From Massilia atriviolacea (GTDB taxonomy: Bacteria; Pseudomonadota; Gammaproteobacteria; Burkholderiales; Burkholderiaceae_D): DNA of 64,000 nt. The translations under genes were made by a program, and so were the position numbers. This document shows, piece by piece, positions 38,227-52,598 of the stretch. A model generated the notes under the pieces. That model had not been told where the DNA came from. It made no database searches and saw nothing but the letters and a program-made list of their open reading frames with translations. Numbering within the stretch: position 1 is the first letter of the stretch; each line of letters begins with the position of its first letter. The DNA lies in NCBI RefSeq assembly GCF_003953935.1, contig NZ_RXLQ01000019.1, positions 1-64,000 on the forward strand, read 5' to 3'.

Positions 38227-39372
38227 ATGCACGCTCACGACACCGCCCCTCCGCCCGCCGCCATGAACCTGGCCGGGATCGACCTGCTGCGCTTCGCCAG
38301 CGCGCTGGCGGTGCTGTTCTGGCATTACCAGCATTTTTCTTTCGTGGGCGCGGTGCCGTTCGAGTTCGATAACCGGGAAGAGCCGTTCTACGGCGCCCTG
38401 TCGATGTTTTATCATTACGGCAAGTTCGGTGTACAAGTGTTCTGGAGCATTTCCGGCTTCATCTTTTTCTGGAAATATGGCGAGGCGATCGCCGCCGGGC
38501 GCATCCAGGCCGGGCGCTTCGCGCTGCTGCGCTTTTCGCGCCTGTATCCGCTGCATCTGTTGACCCTGCTGCTGGTGGCGCTCGGACAGCTGCTGTTCCG
38601 CGCCAGCCATCCGGCGTATTTTGTCTACCAGGACAACAGCCTGGCGAGTTTCTTCCTGCAATTGGGCGTGATCGGCCACTGGTTCTATCCGCTGTTGAGC
38701 AGTGTCTCGTTCAACGGCCCGATCTGGAGCGTGGCGCTGGAACTGCTGGCTTACCTGCTGTTCTTTTTGCTCAGCCGGCGCATCGGCGTGGGCGCGCGCG
38801 CGACTCTGGCCACGGTGGCGCTGCTGGCCCTGGGCCATTATGGAACCGGCCTGCCGGCCTTCGAATGCCTGCTGTTCTTTTACCTGGGCGGGGTCGTGTG
38901 GCTGGCGGCGCGCCGTGCGGCGCTGTGGAGCCGGCGCCGCCGGCAGATCGTCAACGGGGCGGTCGCGCTGCTGTTCCTGGCCACCTGCGCCGCCGTGCGC
39001 CTGCGCCTGGTGTGGGCCGACCATGTGGTGGTGCCGATGGTGCCGCTGCTGGTGTATGTGTTCCTGCAAGGGGTGCAGCCGGTCAGCGCGCGCCTGCGCC
39101 GGGTTTTCGGCGAACTGGGCAACCTGACCTACGCCAGCTACCTGCTGCATTTTCCGCTGCAACTGTATATCGCGCTGGCCTGCGGCTGGCTGGGACGCGA
39201 GGTGCCGTGGCGCTCGCCCTGGCTGTTCATCGGCTTCGTGACGGCCACCATGCTGCTGTCGTATTGGTGCTACCGCCATGTCGAGCGGCCGCTGCAGGAC
39301 TGGATCCGGGGCAGGTGGGGTGCGCCGGCGGGCCTGACGAAGCCGCTGGGCGGCAGCGCGGCGCCGGTGTGA
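38227..39372 (+). CDS. Acyltransferase-3 family membrane protein
   Basis: A 381-residue integral membrane enzyme with about ten helices. It starts with the family pattern NLAGIDLLRFASALAVLFWHYQHF (Arg and His of the RxxR/H catalytic region) and has GVQVFWSISGFIFFW and an ending HVERPLQDW typical of the OafA/ExoZ/NodX group. These enzymes O-acetylate or otherwise acylate sugars of O-antigen or exopolysaccharide in the membrane. It diverges from the O-antigen operon, which suggests the same target. The ATG at 38263 is an alternative start. Confidence 0.92.
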   Translation: MHAHDTAPPPAAMNLAGIDLLRFASALAVLFWHYQHFSFVGAVPFEFDNREEPFYGALSMFYHYGKFGVQVFWSISGFIFFWKYGEAIAAGRIQAGRFALLRFSRLYPLHLLTLLLVALGQLLFRASHPAYFVYQDNSLASFFLQLGVIGHWFYPLLSSVSFNGPIWSVALELLAYLLFFLLSRRIGVGARATLATVALLALGHYGTGLPAFECLLFFYLGGVVWLAARRAALWSRRRRQIVNGAVALLFLATCAAVRLRLVWADHVVVPMVPLLVYVFLQGVQPVSARLRRVFGELGNLTYASYLLHFPLQLYIALACGWLGREVPWRSPWLFIGFVTATMLLSYWCYRHVERPLQDWIRGRWGAPAGLTKPLGGSAAPV

Positions 39373-39682
39373 TGGACCCCATTGGCGAATCGCTGCCGGG
39401 TGGCGCGCCGCCCCAGCCGGCACCCGTGCACCACGCGCAACGCTGTGTGCATGCCTTTGATGGCGGGAAGCCAGTTTGTCACCATTTGTCGTAAACAGGC
39501 ATCATTTAAAAACTGGCACTCAAATTTCTTTCTGAGAAATTTTAATCTACTCATGCAATTTTGCTGAATTATTAATCTGCGAGGTGGCATACATTATCCA
39601 CCTCGTCGCCATTCGTCGCTGCTCCATCCATGAATCCGAGGACCACAGCATACGCTGTTGCCGCGCCAAGCTTTGCGTGAAC
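39373..39682. other. A/T-rich intergenic region with a hairpin (composition boundary)
   Basis: 310 bases without a gene. Base composition drops sharply from about 39490. An 8-base stem, CGAGGTGG (39580-39587) and CCACCTCG (39598-39605), encloses a 10-base A/T-rich loop and could end the minus-strand operon that stops at 39683, although no long T tract follows on that strand. This marks the left edge of the lower-GC region that holds the Lux-type genes. Confidence 0.5.
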
Positions 39683-40960
39683 TCAGGCAAAACGACGATC
39701 GATCACGCGCTTGAGCTTTCCCGAGCGGGGATTGATTTCCAGCGCCGTCGCATCCACCCATTCTATGTCGATGGGCAGGATCTTGCCTTGCGCCAGCAAT
39801 TGAGCATACATGGGGCGATGCTCGTAGATCGCGGCGATGATCTGCGCGCTGAGCGCCGGATCGGCATTGCGATTGCCGATCCGCAGTATCAACCCATCCT
39901 TTCCGTCACGATGGATGGTCAGCAATTGAAAATCGCAGGCGCCCTGGCAAGCCGGAAACGACGCCAGTACCGACCTTACATCTTCCGGATACAGCGTGAC
40001 CGGTCCGATCCTGGCCGATTCATCGGAACGCCCCCGTAACAGAAACTTGCGATGCGCCGTACCATGGGCATCGACCCACCTGGCCCTGTCACCGACCGGA
40101 TAGCGCAGGATCGGCATCAAATGGCGGCGCAGGGCCGTGACCACGGCCAGCCCTTCGATGCCCGGCGCGACGATGGGCGAGCCCGTTTCTTCATCGATAA
40201 TTTCGAACAGCGCATCATCATCGTAGCAGCGAAATTCATTGGGGCCGCATGAAAGATCGGCGAATCCCAGCAATCCGGCATCCGTGCTCGCATAACCGAT
40301 GGAGCGGATCTCGACGCCTGGAAAGCATGCTTCCAACCTGGCGCGCTGATCGGGATACATGGCTTCGCCGGCAAACAGGATCAATCTGACCGTCGACGCG
40401 GCTGGATCGCCTCCCACCTTGTCAATGTGATCTACCAGACTCATCATTGTGGTCGGCACGCCAGCCAGGACCGTGGCCTTGAATTCCTTGATAAAGCGAT
40501 AGACATCGTCGGGTGTCGTGGCGCCCGCAATCGGGAGTTGCATGACCCGCTTGGGGCACTCTTCGAGCGCCTTGTGGGTAAACAAGAACGATCCATACAA
40601 CTCGCCGACATAAAACAGATTGGCGACCCGGTCGCCATCCTGCAGACCTCCCAGCGCCAGTCCGCGGGAAAAGGCTGTGACAAACACATTCCACTCAGTC
40701 CGGCTGAACACCGAGAACTTGGGGTTGCCGGTGGTTCCGCCACTTTTCAAGACGATGCCATCGTGCATTTCCCCCGTCAGCAATTGCCCACCCTCCAGAC
40801 GGTTGGCTTCCCAAAACGCTTGCTGGCTCAACACGGGCAACTGTTCGATCGCGTGTACCGTTTCCGGCAATGCGCGGTAAAGATCGCCATAAAATGGCGA
40901 ATTTTCTCGGGCAAACGCGATCAGTGAGGGAAGTATTTCCCGGCTAATTTCCATGCTCAT
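39683..40960 (-). CDS. PaaK-like adenylate-forming enzyme
   Basis: A 425-residue member of the ANL superfamily close to phenylacetate-CoA ligases and LuxE-like enzymes. The ATP-loop is KSGGTTGNPK (72-81), then YASTDAGLLGF, YPVGDRARW and LRGRSDESARIG in order, with a closing lysine in RSGKLKRVIDRR. It would activate a carboxylic acid as the acyl-AMP and pass it to CoA, a protein thiol or an amine; the substrate is unknown. It is a paralogue of the C-terminal half of the fusion protein upstream. The true start is the ATG at 40960, which overlaps that gene's stop by one base. Confidence 0.82.
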   Translation of the reverse strand: MSMEISREILPSLIAFARENSPFYGDLYRALPETVHAIEQLPVLSQQAFWEANRLEGGQLLTGEMHDGIVLKSGGTTGNPKFSVFSRTEWNVFVTAFSRGLALGGLQDGDRVANLFYVGELYGSFLFTHKALEECPKRVMQLPIAGATTPDDVYRFIKEFKATVLAGVPTTMMSLVDHIDKVGGDPAASTVRLILFAGEAMYPDQRARLEACFPGVEIRSIGYASTDAGLLGFADLSCGPNEFRCYDDDALFEIIDEETGSPIVAPGIEGLAVVTALRRHLMPILRYPVGDRARWVDAHGTAHRKFLLRGRSDESARIGPVTLYPEDVRSVLASFPACQGACDFQLLTIHRDGKDGLILRIGNRNADPALSAQIIAAIYEHRPMYAQLLAQGKILPIDIEWVDATALEINPRSGKLKRVIDRRFA

Positions 40961-43491
40961 CAACGCGCTCTCCGATCCAGCACACGAATCAATTTTCCGC
41001 TTCCCGCAGTCCTGTGGAATTCATCGATTCCCACCGCTTGTACTTCAAACAGCAGCGTTTCATCGGTCAGCACGGCTTCCTGCAAATCCAGGTAGTTTTC
41101 CAGGAAAATCTCTCGGCAACGCAGCGCCGGCAAGCGCTCCGAATCGGAAATCAACAAGATGACCTTGTCCTTGATCCCGGCTTGCGCCAGGATCAGCTGC
41201 GCTTCGCCCGCATAGGCGAAGTGCGTCGCCAGGATGCGGATGAATTCCTGATAATTGAGGAAAGTGGAACCGATCCGACAAATATCCCCCGTCCGTCCCA
41301 GCAATCGAAAGCGCGGCGCGGCCCTGCCGCAGGCGCAAATGCCATCCGGATCGGCGATCCAGTGGCCGACATCGCCGATTTCGTAGCGCAATGGCTTATT
41401 GACCGACAACATGCGCGGCGTGAAAACCAACCGGCCGACTTCCTCGCCTTGCACCGCTCGATCTTCATCCATTTTCAAAATTTCGAGGTATTGAAGCTGT
41501 TGCTGAAGATGGTGGACGCCGCCATCGCTATGTTCGCACTGGAACCCGATCGGACCGATATCGACGCTGCCATAGGCGGCCGAGCGTATCGCATCGACCT
41601 GGAAGGACTCGCGCAGATAATTTCGCTGGGCGGGACTGAAATGTTCTCCGCCATAATAGATCTTCTTGACTCCCCGATAGGCGGAGAGAATGTCAGCTTC
41701 CTTTTCAAACAGTTGCAGAATATACGATGGCATGCCGAGCAAGACATTCACCTTGTTCTTGACGATTTCCTGGGCGACCATGCGGGTATCGCCATGGGCC
41801 GCCATGGGGAACTGGATGGCGCCCAGCTGTTCGAGCGCCGAAAAAAAGCTGATGAAGCCACCGTAGAGTCCCCCGCCAAAGAACAGATTCATCGCCCGGT
41901 CGCCGAGCGGATCGAAGCCCGCCGCGTACAAACCCTCGGCACCGAGCCGGATATGTTCATGGTATTGCTGGTAGCTGAACGTCGACAGTTTTGGTTCGCC
42001 CGTGCTACCGCCCGACTTGAAGAAAAGATGGGCTTGGGCAGGATCGGCCGGCACCGACTGGAACTGCTCCTTGGCGGTAACGGCCGGAACGGGGTCCCAC
42101 TGCAGCGGAGGGAATTTTCTCAACTCATCGAAATTGGAAATCCCCTGCGCTTCATGGGCCAACTGCAAGCTCACTCTGCGGCAATAGCGTTGCAACGCAT
42201 AGACACCGTCATGCGGCTCGCCGGGGTATCCTCCCGTCATTTCGCCAATACGCCGGATACGGATCGCACCCGCACGCAAGAAAGAGCGCGACAGCGGATG
42301 AATTTCCGAGAGTTTGCAACAGATCGCCACTGTTTGCAGATAGTTGCGCATGGGCCGCAAGACCCGGATGATGTCGGTGCGCGGCAAGGGCTTGACCCAG
42401 ATGCTGCGGTACAGCGGCGATGCCGCCAGCGCCGCATGCTCGTCGATGTAAATGCGCCACCCGCCATCTGGTGCTTCGATGAGGCGAGCATTGCCGAGAC
42501 ACGATTCGAGCCTGTGACACTCGCTGACCAAAGCAATTTCGCCGGCACTGGCGGTATCGGGCAACTGGCGCGGCAGTTCGTGCGCCACCAGCGTCAAGGC
42601 ATCGGCAAGCCGCTCGCCAAACCGCTGCAATTCATTCCAGTCCGACGTGTCGAGATAGACACATTGCGGACTAGAACACGCTTGCTGTTCCATCAGGCAG
42701 CATTCCATGGCGAGTTGTTTCAGCGTATGGGGATCCTGGGCAGCTTCCATGGAAAGAAATGCCAACGATATCTTGTGTCCCCACTCGACCATGCGCACGC
42801 TGGCAGGGGCCATGGCGCGTATCGATTGAATCGACTCTTCACCGCCCCAGGCGGCAATGCCGTCGGCCCCGGCAAATACCGGCTCCAGCAGATCTTTTCG
42901 CTTCGACGAGATTGTCGCCACGATAATGAATTTCTCAAGCTGGGCGCTCGGATCGCACTTGCCCAAGGCATGTAACAAGATCTGGGGGAAGGAGCTCTCT
43001 TGCGGACTCGTCTTGAGAAAGTTAAAATTTCCAGAAAGCAATCCTTCGAGCACGCTCATCGGCCCGACCGTGAAGGCATTTTGCGGTGAAATGTGGACCA
43101 GGAAACCCAACGGCGCCCAGGCTTCGAAGATCGCATCGTCGAATTGGGTGCGGCAAGCGAGCAAGGGATTGCTGGAACCGAGTTCACGGATGAGCTTCTT
43201 TTCCAGATTCGCACGGCGCAAGACATCCGCTATTTCAAGCAAGGCCAGATCGATTTCGTCCGACGTAAATTGACCGGTGCCAGACAAGCAGTTCTTCAAT
43301 TCGGTAAAAATAGCCGATTTTTCCCTGATATTTTTCCCGAGTAAATCCCCGGCCGCCAGCACCGTCTCGATATCGAGTTCGCACGCCATTTGCCGGGCCA
43401 CCAAGGATTGTATATCGCCGATCCTGCTGGCCAGTTCTTGATCGCCGATCCACTCGCCTTGCCAGAGGTGTTGCTTGTTCATATCTTCCAT
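40960..43491 (-). CDS. Fusion of LuxC-type acyl-CoA reductase and PaaK-like adenylate-forming domain
   Basis: An 843-residue two-part protein. Residues about 30-440 match LuxC, the acyl-CoA/acyl-protein reductase of bioluminescence operons: the nucleophile loop is MEQQACSSPQ with Cys272, preceded by a SPQNAFTVGP-type cofactor region (135-144). Residues about 455-843 form a PaaK-like adenylating domain with FKSGGSTGEPKLS (491-503), AYGSVDIGPIG (639-649), YEIGDVGHW, LGRTGDICRIG and the terminal lysine in GSGKLIRVLDRR. One chain could therefore activate an acid and reduce an acyl group to an aldehyde. It follows the LuxE-type gene by two bases; GAGG precedes its ATG. Confidence 0.82.
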   Translation of the reverse strand: MEDMNKQHLWQGEWIGDQELASRIGDIQSLVARQMACELDIETVLAAGDLLGKNIREKSAIFTELKNCLSGTGQFTSDEIDLALLEIADVLRRANLEKKLIRELGSSNPLLACRTQFDDAIFEAWAPLGFLVHISPQNAFTVGPMSVLEGLLSGNFNFLKTSPQESSFPQILLHALGKCDPSAQLEKFIIVATISSKRKDLLEPVFAGADGIAAWGGEESIQSIRAMAPASVRMVEWGHKISLAFLSMEAAQDPHTLKQLAMECCLMEQQACSSPQCVYLDTSDWNELQRFGERLADALTLVAHELPRQLPDTASAGEIALVSECHRLESCLGNARLIEAPDGGWRIYIDEHAALAASPLYRSIWVKPLPRTDIIRVLRPMRNYLQTVAICCKLSEIHPLSRSFLRAGAIRIRRIGEMTGGYPGEPHDGVYALQRYCRRVSLQLAHEAQGISNFDELRKFPPLQWDPVPAVTAKEQFQSVPADPAQAHLFFKSGGSTGEPKLSTFSYQQYHEHIRLGAEGLYAAGFDPLGDRAMNLFFGGGLYGGFISFFSALEQLGAIQFPMAAHGDTRMVAQEIVKNKVNVLLGMPSYILQLFEKEADILSAYRGVKKIYYGGEHFSPAQRNYLRESFQVDAIRSAAYGSVDIGPIGFQCEHSDGGVHHLQQQLQYLEILKMDEDRAVQGEEVGRLVFTPRMLSVNKPLRYEIGDVGHWIADPDGICACGRAAPRFRLLGRTGDICRIGSTFLNYQEFIRILATHFAYAGEAQLILAQAGIKDKVILLISDSERLPALRCREIFLENYLDLQEAVLTDETLLFEVQAVGIDEFHRTAGSGKLIRVLDRRAR

Positions 43492-43493
43492 GA

Positions 43494-44654
43494 TTACCGC
43501 CTCAACAGTTCAGCCGCCGCAATGGCGCAGCTTTTGTTTTTACTTGTTCCAGCCCGTCCGTGAATGACGAAATACGGCCGCTCATTTCCGCAAGCACAGG
43601 ATTCGCCGGGATACAGTGTCGCCATGTCGCCCATCAAGACACTCTGGGCAGGCACTGAGGTGATGTAGGGCGTGAGAAATTGCAGAAAGCCCGCTTCACC
43701 GAATTTCCTTGGTTTCAGGGTACGCACATCGCGGATGATCACCTGCGACCAGACGGGAACATGAAATTGGTGGTGTGCGCACTCCGCGTACGGGACGGCA
43801 TGCTCGACCGAGCCGAAGCTGTCGCGGATACGCAGGTCGGGAATGCCAAGCTGCTCGTGAATGCGGGCGTACAGATCGTGTTTGGCGATCGCCTGGTCGG
43901 CATTGCCTTTCCATCCACCGCCGAGGAATACCAGCGAATCGGCGGAGAGTTTGAGCGGCGGCAAGCCCAGCTCGCGCATCCGCTTCAGTGTAAAAAACAG
44001 AAATGCCGGGAAACCGAAAATGCGTACCGGAAGACCTTCTGCGGCGTAGTGCTGCAGCTTTTCGATGCAACCAAAGACATCGAACTCGTGCGACGCGCCG
44101 CCCGCCGCCGTTGTTGGCGCGCCGGTCCTGCGCAAAGCATAAAATGCCGATGCAACGGGTGCATACTTGCACAGGAAATTGTCGGTGTGGGCCGTTCCCA
44201 GTTGCGAATCCGGTGCGGTTTCATACGAATACAGCAGATAGTTGGTCTTGACATCCGGCGTGTTCCAGCCAAAGTGCTCGAAGACCGCGTCGATCATCTT
44301 TTGCCCGGCGCTCAATGACCAGGCATCGAACGAGACTTGCGACTTTTGACCGGTGGTTCCGGAAGAAGTCAGGTGCAGCTTGATGTCATCGCGCGCAACC
44401 GAAAGAAGTTCGTGCGACTTGAAAAACGTCGCAGGAACGAAGGGGATGCTCGCCAGGTCATCGATCGAGGTCAGCGTGGCGGCATCGAATTGTTTCATTT
44501 CCAGCAATTTACGATAAAATGGCGATTGCTCTCGGTGCCAGTTGATATTTTCCTTCATGGCATCGACAAACAGCGATTCCTGCGCGGCGGAGGAAGCGAA
44601 GGGATGGCGTTGTTCGCAAACGCCCTGGACCGCGTGCATAGTCTTGATATTCAT
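43494..44654 (-). CDS. LuxE-type acyl-protein synthetase
   Basis: A 386-residue adenylate-forming enzyme of the LuxE family. The ATP motif is LTSSGTTGQKSQVSF (95-109), with RDSFGSVEHAVPY (278-290) and a conserved C-terminus SCACGNERPYFVIHGRAG (352-369). Cys376 in NKSCAIAAAELLRR lies ten residues from the end, where LuxE carries the cysteine that receives the acyl group. In the lux pathway LuxE activates a fatty acid with ATP and passes it via this cysteine to LuxC. The LuxC-type domain is encoded by the very next gene. An AGGGA ribosome-binding site precedes the ATG, which overlaps the MFS stop. Confidence 0.9.
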   Translation of the reverse strand: MNIKTMHAVQGVCEQRHPFASSAAQESLFVDAMKENINWHREQSPFYRKLLEMKQFDAATLTSIDDLASIPFVPATFFKSHELLSVARDDIKLHLTSSGTTGQKSQVSFDAWSLSAGQKMIDAVFEHFGWNTPDVKTNYLLYSYETAPDSQLGTAHTDNFLCKYAPVASAFYALRRTGAPTTAAGGASHEFDVFGCIEKLQHYAAEGLPVRIFGFPAFLFFTLKRMRELGLPPLKLSADSLVFLGGGWKGNADQAIAKHDLYARIHEQLGIPDLRIRDSFGSVEHAVPYAECAHHQFHVPVWSQVIIRDVRTLKPRKFGEAGFLQFLTPYITSVPAQSVLMGDMATLYPGESCACGNERPYFVIHGRAGTSKNKSCAIAAAELLRR

Positions 44655-45865
44655 ATTTCCCTAAATTCCCGATAAAATGCGGTGGCCAGTGATATCGTCA
44701 ACAACCCGAGCGCGAGACATATCGTCATTTTTGTCAAATCGATTTTTTCAATCAAGCTTCCCACAATCAGCATCGATATCGGCAAGGCGCCAATACTGAT
44801 CGTATTGACCCAGCTCATGACCACGGGGACATCGGCCGGCGCCGGCCGCGATTGAAACAGCGTCAATAGCGACACATTGACGACGGCCAGTGCCAGCCCC
44901 AGGCCAGCCAGTGCCAGGCAAGCCAATACGGGATTGTGGTTCAAGCCGAAGAAAAGGTAGAGCAGGGACACGGCGCTCAAGCCGGCGATCGCCCGCTTGC
45001 CCCTATTGAGCGGAAATTCCGCGACCGAAAGCAACAAACTTCCCGCCACCATTCCCATGCCGATCGACACCTCGAAGGCGGCCAGCATGGCAAGATTGCC
45101 GGCGAACCGGGTCTGGACGAACAAGGGGAGCAAGGCCATCAAGGGTGTCAGCGCAAGATTCATCAGGAAAAATGCCGACAACATGAAGCGTATCAAGGGA
45201 TCGGCAAACATCGACCGCCCGGGTATCGCTGGCGCCATGTCGGCATTCGCCGGCGCCGATTCGACCGTTTCCGGATTAGCAGGATCGAGGCGGATTCCCC
45301 CTTCCAGCCCTGCCGCCAGCAAATAGCTAAGCCCATTCAATACAAGCAGACCCGACAAACCAAGCCAAGGATAGAGCAGGGCGGAAATCGCTGGCCCAAC
45401 TACCGTCCCCAGGGAAAAGCAGGAATCGACCATGGCGGTCAACTGTGGGACCAATTCCTTTTTAGGCATGAGCCCGGGCAGCGTAAAGACAGCGATATTG
45501 AACAGCGCGCCAAGCAAATTTGAAACAAACGTCAGGATAAATAGCGTGGTCAGCGAATGGTGCTTGAAATAGGCGAGCCACAACAGTCCGACCAGCAAGA
45601 AGATGATGCCCCTTAATACGTCGGTGTGTATCAGCGTCCTCAGGACGCCGATTCTTTGCACCAGCTTGCCCCCACTGCTGGCCAGCAACAGATGGGGAAG
45701 CGCGCCTACCGCCAGGAACCACGGTATCATTTGTATGGATTGCTCCTGAGAAATAACCCAGACCAGGCCGAGGGTCATCATCTTGTCGCAGATTTGTGAA
45801 ATGAATTGCCCGACGAAAAGCCGGGATGAATTCTGGTCCTTGAATACTGCTATTGAAAATTTCAT
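44651..45865 (-). CDS. MFS exporter
   Basis: A 404-residue major facilitator with about twelve membrane helices and a motif-A-like segment GGKLVQRIGVLRTLI between helices 2 and 3. The NSRLFVGQFISQICDKMMTLGLVWVI start and the overall pattern resemble the MFS_3/EntS-type exporters that release small secreted metabolites. An ATG at 45865 has an AGGA six bases upstream and is preferred over one at 45871. The gene is placed between the GNAT and LuxE genes with 4-base gaps or overlaps, so it probably exports the operon's product. Confidence 0.82.
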   Translation of the reverse strand: MKFSIAVFKDQNSSRLFVGQFISQICDKMMTLGLVWVISQEQSIQMIPWFLAVGALPHLLLASSGGKLVQRIGVLRTLIHTDVLRGIIFLLVGLLWLAYFKHHSLTTLFILTFVSNLLGALFNIAVFTLPGLMPKKELVPQLTAMVDSCFSLGTVVGPAISALLYPWLGLSGLLVLNGLSYLLAAGLEGGIRLDPANPETVESAPANADMAPAIPGRSMFADPLIRFMLSAFFLMNLALTPLMALLPLFVQTRFAGNLAMLAAFEVSIGMGMVAGSLLLSVAEFPLNRGKRAIAGLSAVSLLYLFFGLNHNPVLACLALAGLGLALAVVNVSLLTLFQSRPAPADVPVVMSWVNTISIGALPISMLIVGSLIEKIDLTKMTICLALGLLTISLATAFYREFREI

Positions 45866-45875
45866 GATCATCCTG

Positions 45876-47036
45876 TCACGCTGCGCACGCCGGTTCCGGC
45901 TCCAGCGAATTTTTTTTCCAGAATTGCAGATACTGGTTCAAATATTCGCGATTAATGCCTTCCAGGCGGATATTTCTGAAATTCAGTATTTCATAAGATC
46001 GGCTGAATATGACGAAATCATAGCGCTGCGCGCCAATCAAATGCATGGCGGGGAAATAGGCGCAGGGAATGAAACCGGCTTGCATGGCGATTTCTATTTT
46101 CGCCGACTCATCGGCGCGAATAATGAATTCGATATAGCGCACACCCAGGTCCTGCAAGATTACCGATGCCTTTTCCACGATATCGGCGAATCCTGCATTG
46201 CACAGATCGTGAATGCCGATCAACACGCAATGTTTGTCCGTCTCTGAAAAATAACAGAAAACCTCCACGTCCTGATCGGCCGAGCTGATCAGCAGATTGG
46301 GTTCTTGAAACGGGAAAAAAGTATGGTGGTCCTGCGCCACCAGCGCGTTCTTGCCCTCGTCAAAACGGCGCTTGGTCAGGCGCGGTGCATGGATCAATTC
46401 GAGTTCCAGCGCGGAGCGTGCGCGCGAAAAATTTTCGGCGCTGGTATGGGGAATCCAATCGTCGGGAATCGCGGGCAAGCCGCATTCGCGCCGGACTATG
46501 TCAAAAAGGGGACGCAGGCGTGGATGCAGGGCAAAATCGGTAAAGCGCGAATCGAACGCGCTTTTCGTAAATAATGCAGTAAGGCAATGCGTTTCATACC
46601 CACTCGTCTTGTGAACATTTGGGAAAATTCCCAGTTTTCGGTAGCCCAGATTCGCCGTTAATTTTTGCGGTGCCGAAGAAACCGTTCTGGTTGTGGCGTA
46701 GACGACTTCGACATGTGCGATGGCGCGCAATTGCGCATAGCCGAATTCCATCATGCGTTCCGTCAAATTCTGTCCGCGACAGTCATTTTCAATGACTGCG
46801 CCAAAGACTTTGGCAAACCCGGTCAGCGTGTGCTGATAGACAACGGACCCGACAATTCGGTCATCGATGGACGCCACAATCCAGTAATAGTCATCCCGCC
46901 CGAGCGCAGCGCGCAGTCGCGCCGTCTCCGACATCATTGGATCACTGTAATCACCTTGGTAGACGCTCTGGTAGAGGTCGACGATCTGAGCGGCATCTCG
47001 TGGAATGGCTTTTCTTAAGGTAATATTTTTTTCCAT
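45876..47036 (-). CDS. GNAT-family N-acyltransferase with C-terminal extension
   Basis: A 386-residue protein. Residues about 5-170 are a GNAT domain: ITLRKAIPRDAAQIVDLYQSVY, the acetyl-CoA-loop region VIENDCRGQNLTERMMEFGYAQLRA and NLGYRKLGIFPNV. The remaining about 210 residues form a second mixed alpha/beta half with an internal ADESAKIEIAMQAGFIPCAYFP that looks like a second, degenerate GNAT fold. The family moves an acyl group from CoA (or another carrier) to an amine. It is the first gene of the operon, downstream of a strong promoter at 47113-47141. No good ribosome-binding site is visible. Confidence 0.75.
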   Translation of the reverse strand: MEKNITLRKAIPRDAAQIVDLYQSVYQGDYSDPMMSETARLRAALGRDDYYWIVASIDDRIVGSVVYQHTLTGFAKVFGAVIENDCRGQNLTERMMEFGYAQLRAIAHVEVVYATTRTVSSAPQKLTANLGYRKLGIFPNVHKTSGYETHCLTALFTKSAFDSRFTDFALHPRLRPLFDIVRRECGLPAIPDDWIPHTSAENFSRARSALELELIHAPRLTKRRFDEGKNALVAQDHHTFFPFQEPNLLISSADQDVEVFCYFSETDKHCVLIGIHDLCNAGFADIVEKASVILQDLGVRYIEFIIRADESAKIEIAMQAGFIPCAYFPAMHLIGAQRYDFVIFSRSYEILNFRNIRLEGINREYLNQYLQFWKKNSLEPEPACAA

Positions 47037-47112
47037 AATATTTTTTTTGACCGTGTATTATCTTATTGGAATAGCGCCGCTTTATTGGTGTGCAAGTTAA
47101 TCATGGCGCCGA

Positions 47113-47141
47113 ATTCTATATAAGGCAACATTGAAAGTCAA
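47113..47141 (-). promoter_or_regulatory. Sigma-70-type promoter of the GNAT/Lux-type operon
   Basis: On the minus strand TTGACT (47141-47136) is followed after exactly 17 bases by TAGAAT (47118-47113), close to the TTGACA/TATAAT consensus at ideal spacing. Transcription would start near 47106, about 70 bases before the GNAT ATG. It is the best housekeeping promoter I saw in the window. Confidence 0.8.
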
Positions 47142-47304
47142 GCAGGGAAATATGACGGCTTGGTGACGACGAAGAAAATATCAGGCCGGGGCCGAATAAT
47201 TACTCAAGGTGGACAATAAATTAAGCGGAAAATTGTCATCAATTTGTAACGCAAAAAATGCAATAAGCATTTTATTTGCCACGGATCCGGTTTTTCTTAA
47301 AACA

Positions 47305-47333
47305 GCCAGAGCGACGCGTCTCGTCGCTCTGGC
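47305..47333. terminator. 12-base-pair perfect inverted repeat
   Basis: gccagagcgacg and cgtcgctctggc flank a 5-base loop. On the minus strand the stem is followed by tgttttaag, weakly T-rich, so it may be a terminator that insulates the Lux-type operon from transcription coming from the Crp side; it could also be an end sequence of a lost mobile element. Confidence 0.6.
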
Positions 47334-47786
47334 AAACCATGTGATACCTTGCCAGTCGATAAACTCGGCGCTCCCGACATAATGTGACGCTTTTATGACC
47401 GACATGCAGCGCCTTGGGCGGCATGCTTTGGAGGCAAAGCGTTCACCTGACAAGGCTCCTGCTGGCGTCGTCGCCGTCGTGGCAATGGAGGCTCTTGCAA
47501 AACTTGCTTAGCAGGGGAGTAGCTTGGGATGGCAAGCAAAAGGGAGGGGGGGCACCAAAACGCCCCACGCCATGGATGCTCCCGGCGCGATCTGATCATG
47601 CAACGCCGGAACGCGATTCAAGATGATGTTACGCCCGCGTTGCGTAGCGAAATTGGCATCGTGACGCCGACATTGGCGCGCGTGGTGCATATTCTGGATC
47701 GGGCATATCAGCCGGGACGGTACTGCGATCGCGGCACGCGAGCGGCCTGTCGCGCCAGGAGCGGCCGAAGCCGCTGTTGCGCCCGG

Positions 47787-48030
47787 CGAGAAAAGCGCGT
47801 GCAAGCGTCAAGGCAAGCGCGCAGTGCCGGCGTCAGCCTCCCCGATCCGGCGCCAGCGCAGCCAGTCGCTGCCGGCATGCTGGCGGAATTGCCCACTGCC
47901 TGTGCCTGCGGCACAAAGTGCAACGCGCAAGGCTACAAAATGAGCTGGAACGGCTACAAGCTGCATATCGGCAGCGCCGACTGCGGCGTACCGGTCGCCG
48001 CTTTGCTGTGCTCGGCCTCTGTGCATCGAT
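47787..48030 (+). pseudogene. Remnant of a DDE transposase (IS5/IS1182-like)
   Basis: A reading-frame fragment includes MLAELPTACACGTKCNAQGY at 47877-47936, followed by SWNGYKLHIGSADCGVPVA and LLCSASVH, ending near 48026. This recalls the core of transposases with GTKRNAKGYxxSWxGYKLHxDxADGDIPV and LTSASLHDSQ. Several expected residues are changed (Asp to Gly in HIGSAD, Gly to Cys after it), the Asp of SLHDSQ is lost, and the sequence leaves the frame soon after. No terminal repeats or intact start are visible. It is a decayed insertion sequence beside the lower-GC operon. The family name is from memory of the motif and is tentative. Confidence 0.6.
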
Positions 48031-48202
48031 ATGCCGGTAGATCTTCCCACCGGCCCCTGACTGAAGTAATTCGCCCGGCCGCGCAGCATCGGAATCAAGT
48101 CTTTGACCCGCGTCTCCGGCGTTGCCGCGAACCATAAGCTCGTCGTGTCGGCATGTATGTGCTTCCGTTATCGCATTCTTCCAACGGCAGACAGCGGTGT
48201 AT

Positions 48203-48979
48203 TTAATTCTGCGCCAGCTTGTGCAGCTCCGCCGGATTGAGGATGATGAGCCGGTGCGTGCCCTTTTCGATGATGCCTTGCTGTACCAGCGCGAGCAGGG
48301 TGCGGGTCACCGTTTCGCGGCTGGTGTTGATCATGTTGGCGATATCCTGGTGGGTCGGCAGGTTTTCCACCACTTCCACATCGCCTTCCTTCTTTTCCTT
48401 CATCAGTTCGAGGAAGGTGTAGATGCGCTTGGCGGTGTTGTGAATGCTCAGCAGCGCGCGGAACTGCGAATCGCGCTGCACTTTTTCGGCCAGGAAGCGC
48501 AGCATGTGCTTGGCCACCGACGGCGAGTGCGAAAACAGGTGCAGCGCGGTGTTGCGCGGCAGCAGCGCCACCATCACCGGACTGAGGGCCACCACCGAGG
48601 CCGAGCGGGTCGAGCCGTTGATCACCGCAATCTCGCCGAAGAAGTCGCCGGGCGCGAGCATGCGCAGGCCGATCGCGCGTCCGTCTTCGGTGACGTCGAT
48701 CACTTGCAGCTGGCCCGACAGCAGGAACAGCAGGCTGTCGCCGCTGGCGCCCTTTTGCAGCACCACGTCGCGCTTGGCGTAGGTGCGGATGCGCAGGTCG
48801 GTCATGACCTGGCGCATTTCATCCTCGCTCAGCTGGGCCAGCAGGGGAATCTTGCGCAGGTGGATCTGGACGCTGACCTTGTTCTGCGAATCCTTGGGCA
48901 CCGGCATCACCGAGGCATCCTCGGGACCGAGCGGAACCCCGTTCTTGGTGGCGGTGACGATGAAGTTATCTGTACTCAT
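48203..48979 (-). CDS. Crp-type cyclic-nucleotide-dependent transcription regulator
   Basis: A 258-residue Crp/Fnr-family protein. After about 40 extra N-terminal residues a cyclic-nucleotide-binding domain carries the phosphate-binding cassette FGEIAVINGSTRSASV (114-129), which has the Glu and the Arg-Ser pair used by E. coli CRP to hold cAMP. There are no Fnr-type cysteines. The C-terminal winged helix has THQDIANMINTSRETVTRTL (209-228), whose RETVxR matches the CRP recognition helix that reads TGTGA. Its gene is the last of a likely four-gene operon that begins with an adenylate cyclase. Sites of the predicted type lie upstream of three nearby surface-protein transcription units. Confidence 0.92.
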   Translation of the reverse strand: MSTDNFIVTATKNGVPLGPEDASVMPVPKDSQNKVSVQIHLRKIPLLAQLSEDEMRQVMTDLRIRTYAKRDVVLQKGASGDSLLFLLSGQLQVIDVTEDGRAIGLRMLAPGDFFGEIAVINGSTRSASVVALSPVMVALLPRNTALHLFSHSPSVAKHMLRFLAEKVQRDSQFRALLSIHNTAKRIYTFLELMKEKKEGDVEVVENLPTHQDIANMINTSRETVTRTLLALVQQGIIEKGTHRLIILNPAELHKLAQN

Positions 48980-49410: not shown

Positions 49411-50772
49411 TTACCAGTTGTCGGTGCGCCAGCTGAACTGGAGCCAGCGGCTGTCGTACTGGAACAGGGGAATGTTCTCGCGATTGAAGGTGCGCCGCAC
49501 TTCCAGCTGCAGGGCGCTGTGGGTGCCGACCGGGAACAGCAGGCTGGCGCGCAGCTGGGTGGTGTCCTGGTCGCGCCGGGTCTCGATGAAGTCTTGCGAG
49601 TAGATGCGCGAACCGCGCCAGGACTGGCGCGACAGGCCGGCTTCGGCGATGGCTTTCTCGCCCAGCAGCGCGACCAGGTTGGCGCCGCCGTACCAGCCGT
49701 GGCGGTCGCCGCCGGGACGGGCCGTCTTGCCGGCGTCGGCCAGCAGGCCGGCCGAGAGCACCACGGTGCGCTGCTTGCCGCGCATGGCCAGGCTGGTGCC
49801 CAGGTCGAGCGTGCGCGCATCGTAATAGCGCCGGGTCGGATAGATGGCGCTGCTAAAGCCGGCGCTGAGCGACCAGCCGAGCGATTCGCCCAGGTCGAGC
49901 GGCGGCACGGCGCGCAGCAGCACCTGGGCCTGGCGCTGGTACAGCTCGCCGCCGAGGCGGACCAGGCCGTAGGCGGCGGTGGCGCGCCCGGTCCAGCCGG
50001 CGCCGCTCCACGGCCGTTCCAGGGCGAGCAGGGCCGAATCGCTGTCCTGGCTGGTCACGTCGGTATGGCGCAGGGCGCGCAACTGGGCGATCAGGAGCAT
50101 GCCGCGGCTGCCGATCGGCTGGTTGAAGTCGCCCGACAGGACCTTGAAATGGTCGGCGCGCGGGCGCGAGTCGGTTCCCAGTTCCACCTGCTGCAGGTTG
50201 TTGGTGCTGCCGAGCATGACGAAGCGGCTGCTCGAACCCTGGTTGACGTTGGTGTCGTAACCGGCGCCGAGCTTGAAGGACATCGAGCGCGGATGGCTGC
50301 GCTGCCCCTTGCAGCCCGAATTGCGGTAGTGGGCGATCAGTTGCAGGATCGACTCGGACGGATGGAAACGCTGTTCGATCTGGTCGAACAGGCGCTCGGC
50401 CTCGGCCTTGTTGCCCAGTTCGCAATGGCTGATCGCCAGGTCGAGCCAGGCGCCGGCGTGCAGGGCGTTCTTTTCCAGCAGCCGGCTGAGCTTGGTGGTG
50501 GCTTCGTCGGGACGTCCTTCGGACAGCGAACGCAGGGCGTCGAGGTACAGTTTTTCTTCCTGGGCCGCCTGCTCGTCGCTGAGCGGGGCCGGGGCCTCGG
50601 GTGCGGGCGATTCGGCCGCAGCTGTTACCGGCGCCGGCGTGTCGGGCGCCGCCGTGTCGGCCGCTGGCGGCGCCGCGTTTTCCGGCGCCTCGCCCAGCTG
50701 GGCGCGCGCCGGGGCGAGCGCGCCCAGCGCCAGCAGCATGGCCAGCAGCGGCGTCAGGAACGGGCGCCTCAT
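49411..50772 (-). CDS. Outer-membrane barrel protein with TPR-like N-terminal region
   Basis: A 453-residue exported protein. Signal peptide: residues 1-24 (ends in ALAPARA). An Ala/Pro/Glu-rich linker (about 25-70) leads to helical TPR-like repeats (LYLDALRSLSEGRPDEATTKLSRLLEKN, AWLDLAISHCELGNKAEAERLFDQIEQ; residues about 74-135), then an alternating beta pattern from FKLGAGYDTNVNQGS (about 160) to the end (LQFSWRTDNW), which is consistent with a beta-barrel such as DUF560/Slam-like modules. Function unknown; an export or surface-sensor role is plausible. The start overlaps the stop of the cyclase gene (ATGA). Confidence 0.72.
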   Translation of the reverse strand: MRRPFLTPLLAMLLALGALAPARAQLGEAPENAAPPAADTAAPDTPAPVTAAAESPAPEAPAPLSDEQAAQEEKLYLDALRSLSEGRPDEATTKLSRLLEKNALHAGAWLDLAISHCELGNKAEAERLFDQIEQRFHPSESILQLIAHYRNSGCKGQRSHPRSMSFKLGAGYDTNVNQGSSSRFVMLGSTNNLQQVELGTDSRPRADHFKVLSGDFNQPIGSRGMLLIAQLRALRHTDVTSQDSDSALLALERPWSGAGWTGRATAAYGLVRLGGELYQRQAQVLLRAVPPLDLGESLGWSLSAGFSSAIYPTRRYYDARTLDLGTSLAMRGKQRTVVLSAGLLADAGKTARPGGDRHGWYGGANLVALLGEKAIAEAGLSRQSWRGSRIYSQDFIETRRDQDTTQLRASLLFPVGTHSALQLEVRRTFNRENIPLFQYDSRWLQFSWRTDNW

Positions 50773-52598
50773 GCCAGCTCCTCCAGCGTGTACAGCTCGA
50801 TCGGCACTTCCTTGCCGCGCAGCGCGTGGCGGCCCAGGCTGAGGAAGCGGTGGCGCGTGGCGTAGCCGACCGTGCCCTGGCCGATGATCACATCGTGCGG
50901 GAAGTCGCGCGCCGCCTGTTCCAGGCGCGAGGCGGTGTTGACGCTGTCGCCGACCGCCGTATAAATGCTGCGGAAGGCGGTGCCGTAGTCGCCCACCATG
51001 GCCAACCCGCTTTCGATGCCGATGCGTACGCGCAGCGGCTGGCCGCCGGCGCGCACCCGGGCCGCGCTCAGGATGGCGACTTCGCGCAGGATGCGGGCCG
51101 CCGCGTCCAGCGCCAGGTCGGCGTGCTGTTCGTTGGGAATCGGCGCGCCCCAGAAGGCGACCAGGCCGTCGCCGGTGTATTTGTCGAGCGTGCCCTTGTT
51201 TTCCAGCACCGGACGGGTCAGGCAATCGAGGAAGTCGGTGGTCAGCCTGGCCGCTTCCTCGACCGGCAGCGCTTCGACCTGCGAGGTGTAGCCCTGCATG
51301 TCGGCGATCAGGGTGGTGACCTGCAGCTGGCGCGGCGCGAGCGGGTCTTTCAGGCCGCTGCGCAGCAGTTCGTCGACCACTTCGCCGGCCACGTAGCGGC
51401 GCATGGTGTCGAGCAGGCGCCGCGAACCGGACTGGGCCAGCTGCCAGTGGAAGGGCACGCCCACCGCCAGCAGGAAGGCGATCGACAGCAGCGGGCCGCT
51501 CACCGAAAAATCGGGATCGTGCGCGGACAGGCCGTAGGCCAGCAGGGCCCAGGTCAGCGAAGCGAGCGCCAGCATCAGCACATTGACGGCGGCCGACAGG
51601 CGCGCGAAGGTGTAGCCGGCCAGGGCCGCGACGGCGCTGGCGAACAGCACCGCCATCAGGCGTCCGGGCCAGGGCGCCGGGGCCAGCCCGGCCTGGCGGT
51701 CGAGCAGGGTGGTGAGCATCGAGGCGTGTACCAGCAGTCCCGGGCTGGAACGCCCGAGCGGGGTGGCGACGCGGTCGCCGATGCTCAGCGACGAGGAGCC
51801 GATCAGCACCAGGCGCCCTGCCACCATGGCCGGGTCGACCCGGCCGTCGAGGATCTCGCCGGCCTTGGCCACGGTGTAGGCGTCGAGCGAACGGCTGAAG
51901 GGGACGCGCTGGTAGCCGTCCTGCGGGCCGGGCGCCGGTGCTGCGGCGGGCGTGCCGCAGCAGTCGAGCAGCGCGCGCGACAGGGTCGGAAAGCGGCGCT
52001 GTTCGAACCAGGTATACATGGGGACGCGGCGCAGCACGCCGTCGGGATCGGGGCGCACCCCGATATTGCCCACGTGCGGGGCCAGCGCCAGCCCGGCGTG
52101 GTTGGCAATGAAGCCGTAGGCCGGCACGGCCCCGCCCGCCGCTGCGGACGGGATGCCGCCGGCCGGGCGCCCGAAACGCAGCGCCTGCGGGCGCTGTTCG
52201 TAATCGAACAGCTGGGCCAGCACCAGCGGGCCCTGCCCGGCCAGCACGGCCAGCCGCAGGTCGCCGGCCGGGTCGCCCGGCTCGCCTTGCAGGATGTCGA
52301 GCGCGACCGCGCGCGCACCGTCGCCGATCAGGGTTTCCACCAGTTCGGCCAGGCGCTCGCGCGACCATGGCCAGGGATGCGCCGCCAGGCTGGTTTCGTC
52401 GATATCGACCACCAGGATGCGCGGCTCGGGCGTGTCGACCGCCTGCGCCACCACGAAGCGGTCGCGCAGCCATTCGTCGGCCGCGTCCAGCACAGACGGC
52501 CCGCGCGGCCATTGCGCCCAGACGGCCAGCATCAGCGCCGCCAGGGGAATCGACAGGTGCAGCAGGGAAGAGGGGGAAAAGGAGCGCAAGTGGGCCAA
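50769..52598 (-). CDS. CHASE2-domain class III adenylate cyclase
   Basis: A 609-residue membrane enzyme. An N-terminal helix (about 12-30) and a periplasmic CHASE2 sensor (about 55-300, with ILVVDIDETSL and GRLVLIGSSSLSIGD) precede three membrane helices (about 312-385) and a cyclase domain (about 425-609). Catalytic positions are intact: metal-binding Asp433 (IADMQGYT) and Asp477 (KYTGDG), purine-specifying Lys473 and Thr547, and transition-state Asn554 and Arg558 (SVNTASRLE). Lys plus Thr points to ATP, so cAMP is the likely product. The only usable start in frame is a TTG at 52598, without a clear ribosome-binding site, so the N-terminus is uncertain. Confidence 0.9.
   Translation of the reverse strand: MAHLRSFSPSSLLHLSIPLAALMLAVWAQWPRGPSVLDAADEWLRDRFVVAQAVDTPEPRILVVDIDETSLAAHPWPWSRERLAELVETLIGDGARAVALDILQGEPGDPAGDLRLAVLAGQGPLVLAQLFDYEQRPQALRFGRPAGGIPSAAAGGAVPAYGFIANHAGLALAPHVGNIGVRPDPDGVLRRVPMYTWFEQRRFPTLSRALLDCCGTPAAAPAPGPQDGYQRVPFSRSLDAYTVAKAGEILDGRVDPAMVAGRLVLIGSSSLSIGDRVATPLGRSSPGLLVHASMLTTLLDRQAGLAPAPWPGRLMAVLFASAVAALAGYTFARLSAAVNVLMLALASLTWALLAYGLSAHDPDFSVSGPLLSIAFLLAVGVPFHWQLAQSGSRRLLDTMRRYVAGEVVDELLRSGLKDPLAPRQLQVTTLIADMQGYTSQVEALPVEEAARLTTDFLDCLTRPVLENKGTLDKYTGDGLVAFWGAPIPNEQHADLALDAAARILREVAILSAARVRAGGQPLRVRIGIESGLAMVGDYGTAFRSIYTAVGDSVNTASRLEQAARDFPHDVIIGQGTVGYATRHRFLSLGRHALRGKEVPIELYTLEELA

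Follow-up and report, generated by a model that had tools for sequence, protein, structure and literature searches.

A mobile operon with a LuxC–PaaK fusion, a candidate biosynthetic cassette for an exported small molecule

In the first 64,000 nucleotides of Massilia atriviolacea contig NZ_RXLQ01000019.1 (RefSeq assembly GCF_003953935.1; this whole stretch is hereafter called the window), five minus-strand genes at 39683–47036 encode a GNAT-family acyltransferase, an efflux-type transporter of the major facilitator superfamily (MFS), a LuxE-type acyl-protein synthetase, a LuxC-type reductase fused to a PaaK-like adenylation domain, and a separate PaaK-like ligase. From gene content, conserved active sites and distribution, we propose that this operon is probably a biosynthetic cassette that is complete in itself, moves horizontally and makes a small molecule for export. 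Sequence comparison identifies it as a variant of the LuxC/LuxE acid-reductase kind that is real, conserved and mobile. Chance does not account for the five-gene set, because these genes are also found together in distantly related taxa.

The best-known role of LuxC and LuxE is to supply luciferase with its substrate. LuxE binds the acyl group as a thioester to one of its cysteines, and LuxC reduces this thioester to an aldehyde. PaaK-type sites produce acyl-AMP or acyl-CoA, and GNATs acylate amines from CoA esters.

Operon layout and catalytic sites

A preliminary description of this DNA, made from its letters alone, had claimed five closely spaced minus-strand genes of these families. Pfam and an open reading frame (ORF) check bear this out: all five ORFs lie at the coordinates given beforehand, and at the successive junctions from the GNAT gene to the separate PaaK gene, neighbours lie 4 bases apart, overlap by 4, lie 2 apart and overlap by 4, with no gap or overlap above 4. 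The operon holds two PaaK-like enzymes, one fused to LuxC and one separate. Its genes and domains are as follows.

45876–47036, minus strand: GNAT-family acyltransferase, 386 aa (Pfam PF00583, 2.4e-5; profile match to GNATs of other cassettes; dN < dS)
44651–45871, minus strand: MFS efflux-type transporter, 406 aa (PF07690, MFS_1, 2.8e-23)
43494–44654, minus strand: LuxE-type acyl-protein synthetase, 386 aa, acyl-cysteine Cys376 (PF04443, 7.3e-32; alignment to 7xc6 LuxE)
40960–43491, minus strand: LuxC–PaaK fusion, 843 aa (Pfam; full-length relatives in Streptomyces, other Pseudomonadota and archaea)
42178–43242, minus strand: LuxC reductase domain of the fusion, residues 84–438, nucleophile Cys272 (Pfam; 7xc6 alignment; 18-protein alignment)
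40963–42153, minus strand: PaaK-like adenylation domain of the fusion, residues 447–843, with P-loop, Asp707, the C652/H661/C719/C721 set and A10 Lys833 (NCBIfam; alignments)
39683–40963, minus strand: stand-alone PaaK-like ligase, 426 aa, TTG start (TIGR02155, 2.8e-28, under cut-off; tree clade apart from the fused PaaK)

Both cysteines named in the preliminary description align with their counterparts in the LuxC–LuxE complex 7xc6: Cys376, near the LuxE C-terminus, with the LuxE cysteine, and Cys272 of LuxC (in EQQACSSPQ) with the nucleophile. The fused and the separate PaaK can both be aligned to 4r1l and 2y4o. Across 18 aligned fused proteins, a set without the five further Massilia copies and without two degraded ones, the invariant residues include Cys272, S493/G494/G495/G498 of the P-loop, Asp707 (motif A7), C652/H661/C719/C721 and Lys833 (motif A10). 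The tested catalytic residues of LuxE, LuxC and the fused PaaK domain are intact.

Membership of the broad families is clear for both Lux proteins, with LuxE scoring 111.1 bits against PF04443 (cut-off 24.9) and the LuxC domain 285.2 bits (1.1e-84) against PF05893 (cut-off 21). The Pfam AMP-binding model matches the stand-alone PaaK at 7.9e-11 and the fusion chain at 1.8e-6, the latter at 27.5 bits, slightly below the cut-off of 29.9. NCBIfam equivalog cut-offs are missed widely: LuxE reaches 92.5 bits against the bioluminescence LuxE model NF052244 (cut-off 550), LuxC 69.1 bits against its bioluminescence counterpart NF052251 (cut-off 750), and the separate and fused PaaKs 98.6 and 66.4 bits against TIGR02155 (cut-off 646). 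Substrates can therefore not be read from the names LuxC, LuxE and PaaK. The MFS protein matches the H+ antiporter subfamily model TIGR00900 at 3.2e-35, under that model's cut-off. In the GNAT protein the fold occupies residues ~17–119 of 386, followed by a long C-terminal half, and a PDB profile search with the cassette GNATs matched only acetyltransferases of the general GNAT family.

The five genes include no luxA/B, luxD, carrier protein, aminotransferase, polyketide synthase (PKS) or nonribosomal peptide synthetase (NRPS) gene; for luxD this was determined with Pfam on these five genes, the genome not being searched for it. Neither a phosphopantetheine carrier nor a thioester-reductase domain appeared in a Pfam scan at E 0.01. 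The preliminary description had the operon working without luciferase and named luxA/B elsewhere in the genome as a possible refutation. A genome-wide search of the draft assembly (80 contigs, 100% complete by the tool's estimate) returned three luciferase-family (PF00296) proteins only, of the SsuD, MsnO8 and NtaA/DmoA types and none of them LuxA/B. Cryptic light production is rejected, as no luxA/B was found in the genome.

Base composition is lower than in the flanks, again as first described. In a profile of 30–56 kb, 1-kb intervals wholly inside the operon have a G+C fraction of 0.51–0.59, against 0.61–0.74 outside, except for 0.56–0.60 at 54–56 kb and 0.49–0.55 at the operon edge (46.5–48 kb).

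A mobile block in Massilia

The operon lies within a block of DNA that recurs in five other Massilia genomes.

39591–47487, minus strand: mobile block, 7.8–7.9 kb, 96.9–97.7% DNA identity to five other Massilia genomes (ends vary by copy, 39591–39676 and 47433–47487)

Among the 17 genomes of the genus compared, six carry the fusion. All five genes, at 97–99% protein identity, are present in M. mucilaginosa, M. frigida, M. rubra and M. aquatica, and likewise in a one-contig Massilia genome (G013). DNA comparison shows that identity to the window copy ends abruptly at the block edges, and in 15 of 15 pairs of the six copies the surroundings are unrelated, the common DNA being the block apart from small pieces. 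L006 and L037 share one piece of 557 bp at 66% and another of 54 bp, the window and L006 two pieces of less than 80 bp each, and L004 (8867–8927) and L007 (8126–8186) a 61-bp piece at 95% identity directly past the downstream end of the block, possibly an insertion-sequence end. L004 and L007 otherwise have no common flank, over flanks as short as about 1 and 1.4 kb, with 0.2 kb on one side. L005, L007 and L037 share ~150 bp more upstream than the other copies do.

The genes that flank the window copy are found in the five other genomes away from the cassette, at 72–92% identity (mostly 83–92%), and a further 18.5 kb of the window is colinear in pieces with the same genomes at 73–92% (87–88% for the six longest). 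Synonymous divergence (dS) from the window is 0.038–0.080 for the five cassette genes across the five copies and 0.19–0.38 for five flanking genes in G002 and G013. This low cassette dS relative to the flanks, together with the abrupt block ends, points to recent spread between Massilia species, which on these comparisons is the best explanation of the block. Four of the genes (MFS, LuxE, fusion, PaaK) have ratios of nonsynonymous to synonymous divergence (dN/dS) of 0.10–0.29 between the window and the five copies, and the GNAT gene has a dN of 0.008–0.012 at a dS of 0.043–0.080; the cassette genes are under purifying selection. No transposase lies inside the block. A profile scan for transposase and integrase neighbours, covering the L004 and L037 copies, found a transposase DNA-binding ORF next to the former, whereas the latter is flanked on each side by ORFs for an integrase or transposase.

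Upstream of the GNAT gene are two further elements.

47113–47141, minus strand: sigma-70-like promoter, TTGACT-17-TAGAAT, 10 of 12 consensus matches (2 promoter-like sites in 801 bases against 0.8 expected in shuffles)
47305–47333, minus strand: 12-bp GC-rich hairpin with a T tail, upstream of the promoter (1 found against 1.0 expected in shuffles)

Each of the other five Massilia copies has the same promoter sequence ahead of its GNAT gene. The hairpin recurs in them in altered form and is possibly the terminator of a lost upstream gene. An Rfam scan of 39300–48250 at the gathering threshold gave no match.

Next to the window copy stand an O-antigen-type ABC transporter and a CRP-type regulator. 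A link of the operon to these genes was considered and rejected; they are probably irrelevant to it, since in the other five Massilia genomes the block sits elsewhere and the flanking DNA occurs without it. The flanking acyltransferase and CRP-type genes delimit a variable spot (window 39372–48207); in G002 and G013 both genes are kept, separated by 7.0 and 4.6 kb of other DNA. Close to the CRP-type regulator gene (48203–48979), the window also encodes a CHASE2 sensor fused to a guanylate/adenylate cyclase domain (50769–52598).

Recurrence in distant bacteria and archaea

Full-length fusions occur well beyond Massilia: in plasmids of Streptantibioticus and Streptomyces (43–44% identity), in two Salmonella plasmids (37%), in the Burkholderiales G108, G119 and G1083, in the gammaproteobacterium G435 and its family, and in Thermoplasmatota archaea. 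Their distribution is sparse. In samples that overlap in part, the fusion is present in 8 of 148 relatives, 2 of 398 genomes of the phylum (with an unfused LuxC in three more), 1 of 369 genomes of G435's class, 9 of 246 of its family (two of the nine shortened) and 2 of 10 genomes of G108's family; the Streptomycetaceae copies come from plasmid records instead of whole genomes. A sample of 194 genomes of the archaeal phylum held three full fusions and two partial or interrupted matches. Thermoplasmatota matches L052 (G560) and L053 (G551) carry in-frame TAG (2) or TGA (1) codons, for which decay, sequencing error and stop readthrough cannot be told apart. The archaeal locus L056 adjoins the gene for the archaeosine enzyme TgtA, an argument against bin contamination at this locus. 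E. coli genomes gave no match to the Salmonella cassette in a search mode that needs ~85% identity.

Gene content was compared at 25 fusion loci (six Massilia, three Streptomycetaceae of four plasmid hits, one of two Salmonella plasmid hits, three other Burkholderiales, nine from G435's family and three archaea). LuxE adjoins the fusion in all 25, and a GNAT gene is present in 24, the exception being G119, where the locus stops at the contig edge. A second PaaK, of bacterial type, occurs at 22 (truncated in L089), and an exporter gene at 18 (15 MFS, 3 MATE). A neighbourhood search in Oxalobacteraceae and elsewhere had been proposed in the preliminary description: the association of the fusion with LuxE and GNAT recurs, whereas gene order is shuffled and the transporter family varies. 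The order is GNAT-MFS-LuxE-fusion-PaaK in Massilia, PaaK-MFS-GNAT-LuxE-fusion in Streptomyces, MFS-LuxE-fusion-PaaK-GNAT in several Pseudomonadota and GNAT-LuxE-fusion-MATE in archaea. The exporters are 2A0121-like MFS, MdfA/Bcr-like MFS or MATE proteins; the Massilia MFS matches that of the Streptomyces cassette weakly (4e-11) and the MdfA/Bcr-like protein of G108 barely at all (0.023). Exporters of such different types argue for export of a product rather than inheritance of one ancestral transporter, and shuffled order, constant enzymes and varied exporters together fit one pathway with an exported product. The export role proposed at the outset is thus strengthened by an exporter linked to most copies. 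In profile comparisons, the GNATs of three lineages match each other at 92–97% probability.

Phylogenies and distances indicate that the enzymes have travelled together. The fused PaaKs (12 rows) fall into one clade and the separate cassette PaaKs (9 rows) into another, both with 100/99 support and both apart from seven other PaaK-like proteins (11 loci were tried and four gave no row), in a tree for which the program warns of long branches. In the LuxC tree the Massilia, archaeal and Burkholderiales-gamma-Salmonella lineages each have full support; in the LuxE tree the first two are fully supported and the third at 91/100. Deeper forks are not settled in either. Fused LuxCs do not emerge as one clade, an unfused Streptomyces europaeiscabiei LuxC joins the Streptomyces fusions (84/93), and a Chloroflexota and gut-clone pair is unplaced; this topology is compatible with PaaK gain and PaaK loss alike. 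Between LuxE, LuxC, fused PaaK and PaaK, the distance matrices correlate at r 0.92–0.96 (0 of 999 permutations) over 18 loci, or 15 for comparisons with PaaK, a set without the other Massilia and two degraded copies. Because shared ancestry inflates r, this agreement shows co-inheritance of the enzymes across bacteria and archaea, and not interaction.

The unfused S. europaeiscabiei pair (L033, NZ_CP109155.1, 1883–10341) lies beside DUF692, YcaO, MBL-fold, MFS and ABC-F genes, possibly a cluster for a ribosomally synthesised and post-translationally modified peptide that uses a LuxC/LuxE reductase. Another unfused pair is in MT835565.1 (L067, 219–7784), an unverified clone labelled Bacteriophage sp. 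whose ORFs (topoisomerase-like, LuxE, unfused LuxC, small membrane protein) look bacterial by eye. This was the sole 'phage' match, and one scan of viral contigs with two short patterns found no relative of the cassette; phage carriage is set aside. Phage defence is rejected, as the five proteins gave no match to a PADLOC model.

The archaeal version carries additional domains. Its loci are the following.

L008 5690–14709; L055 9311–17918; L056 6123–14650: archaeal clusters with HATPase_c_2-fused GNAT and MATE proteins and a SpoIIE phosphatase

At all three Thermoplasmatota loci a HATPase_c_2 domain stands at the N-terminus of the GNAT and another at the C-terminus of the MATE exporter, and a gene for a SpoIIE phosphatase is near. 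Pfam was run on three L008 proteins and the L055 phosphatase, and the remainder was read from ORFs; the MATE proteins of L055 and L056 match that of L008 along the full length of the latter. This set resembles bacterial partner switching, which suggests, by analogy, that synthesis and export are regulated in archaea. To our knowledge archaea have no bacterial-type sigma factors.

A proposed pathway and its competitors

In the pathway we propose, LuxE would likely adenylate a free carboxylic acid and move the acyl group onto its own Cys376. It would then likely pass the acyl group to Cys272 of LuxC, which would use NAD(P)H to reduce the thioester to an aldehyde, in the manner of the LuxC–LuxE fatty-acid reductase. 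The fused PaaK domain, held beside the reductase, and the separate PaaK could plausibly activate a second acid as acyl-AMP or acyl-CoA, and the GNAT could plausibly move an acyl group from CoA onto an amine, in an order relative to the PaaK step that is not fixed. The MFS protein would likely export the product, expected to be an N-acylated amino-aldehyde or a compound formed from such an aldehyde by spontaneous condensation. No carrier protein would be needed. A broader reading, which we offer tentatively and consider doubtful, is that four to five genes, forming a carrier-free system for a natural product or a signal, crossed between bacterial phyla and archaea as a unit and serve to make and export an acylated aldehyde, with the archaeal copies switched by partner-switching phosphorylation.

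Known systems resemble the cassette in part. The luciferase fatty-acid reductase LuxC–LuxE (7xc6) shares both families, both catalytic cysteines and adjacent genes; the cassette differs in lacking luxA, luxB and luxD (luxA/B were not found elsewhere in the genome either), in the C-terminal PaaK of its LuxC, and in a CxC motif in its LuxE that is not seen in 7xc6 LuxE. The PaaK ligases 4r1l, 2y4o and 2y27 share the adenylation fold by sequence, the P-loop, a 4r1l-like Cys set and the A10 lysine, but one cassette copy is fused to LuxC and both are far under the TIGR02155 cut-off. Carboxylic acid reductases, with adenylation, peptidyl carrier protein and reductase domains (A-PCP-R), also take an acid to an aldehyde with ATP and NADPH in a fused protein. 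The cassette fusion, in contrast, has no carrier domain, a LuxC-type domain instead of a thioester reductase, and the reverse domain order.

Several observations weigh against the cassette proposal or its details. No orthologue of the second PaaK is near any of the three archaeal copies, so the second PaaK is not indispensable. Four transporter queries found no exporter at six bacterial copies (L049, which is near a contig end, and L085–L089), and the Salmonella plasmid keeps only an exporter remnant, a 121-aa ORF upstream of luxE that matches residues 15–80 of the G108 transporter. Two copies in G435's family, L088 and L089, are degraded, with fusion ORFs of 713 and 481 aa beside still-open LuxE and GNAT genes; the trait can evidently be lost. 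The GNAT kinship between lineages could be generic, the Massilia-Streptomyces match to the gamma proteins spanning the N-terminal domain only. AlphaFold models have low confidence (pLDDT, the predicted local distance difference test, is 30.7 for the GNAT with 4 rows and 44.9 for the fusion with 6 rows). Substrates, step order and product, including the aldehyde or acyl amide suggested in the preliminary description, we infer from enzyme families, and with all equivalog scores far below cut-off the enzymes may act on other substrates than LuxC, LuxE and PaaK do. The words 'in place of light' in that description are a figure of speech.

Among competing explanations, the cassette could encode a single-chain aryl or fatty carboxylic acid reductase in which the PaaK domain loads LuxC directly and LuxE loads another acid, yielding two aldehydes or mixed products. 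We consider this rather unlikely. The fusion does carry complete adenylation and reductase sites, and grixazone biosynthesis offers a precedent in which an AMP-binding protein and a reductase make 3-amino-4-hydroxybenzaldehyde (PMC10179220). This pair, GriC/GriD, which takes a free acid to an aldehyde with an adenylating protein and a reductase, is the closest works-like precedent found in print (PMC10179220). It differs in being two separate proteins that act on 3-amino-4-hydroxybenzoic acid (3,4-AHBA), and is likened here by description, not by sequence. We know of no GNAT or second ligase that belongs to the GriC/GriD system. Three unfused relatives of the cassette are LuxE–LuxC pairs with no adjoining PaaK, so LuxE can serve such a reductase alone; the LuxC tree leaves undecided whether these pairs are older or have lost PaaK.

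A catabolic or detoxifying operon, in which acids or aldehydes are taken up or removed via CoA esters with LuxC as acylating aldehyde dehydrogenase, is improbable. PaaK-type ligases belong to phenylacetate degradation and LuxC to the aldehyde dehydrogenase superfamily, but the block has no oxygenase, hydratase or beta-oxidation gene, its transporters resemble efflux families, and we know of no catabolic role for a LuxE acyl-cysteine.

Modification of cell-surface glycans or lipopolysaccharide is very improbable. LuxE and LuxC occur without luciferase in flagellar glycosylation islands of Aeromonas and Enterobacteriaceae, which also hold ligase, acyl carrier protein (ACP), ketoreductase and, in Aeromonas, glycosyltransferase genes (PMC7874193, PMC4875605), and the window copy adjoins Wzm/Wzt-type genes. 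The block shared by the six Massilia copies, however, consists of the five genes only, with no glycosyltransferase, ACP, ketoreductase or pse gene, and its location differs in the five other genomes. Three unfused Pseudomonadota LuxCs (L040–L042) are distant (22–27% identity) and separate in the tree. Least credible is a self-resistance unit in which the GNAT inactivates, the MFS exports and the ligases modify an antibiotic: GNAT plus efflux is a usual resistance pairing and the block is mobile, but three adenylation sites and a reductase are more than resistance requires.

The biosynthetic cassette that we favour has, as the preliminary description held, no counterpart in print as far as searched: titles and abstracts among the open-access matches listed contain no LuxC–PaaK fusion and no such cluster. 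Two papers on this Massilia group (PMC10213415, PMC9028926) mention neither lux, acyl-CoA reductase nor phenylacetate in their main text; one of them reports 17 antiSMASH clusters in M. frigida DJPM01. Mobility within Massilia and spread far beyond Oxalobacteraceae, archaea included, are what sequence comparison adds to the earlier picture. A conserved LuxC–PaaK fusion that adjoins LuxE and almost always has a GNAT close by would amount to a compact class of pathway that works without carrier proteins. Genome mining keyed to PKS, NRPS and known core enzymes could miss such cassettes. With five genes in a mobile block, the product could be found by expressing one cassette.

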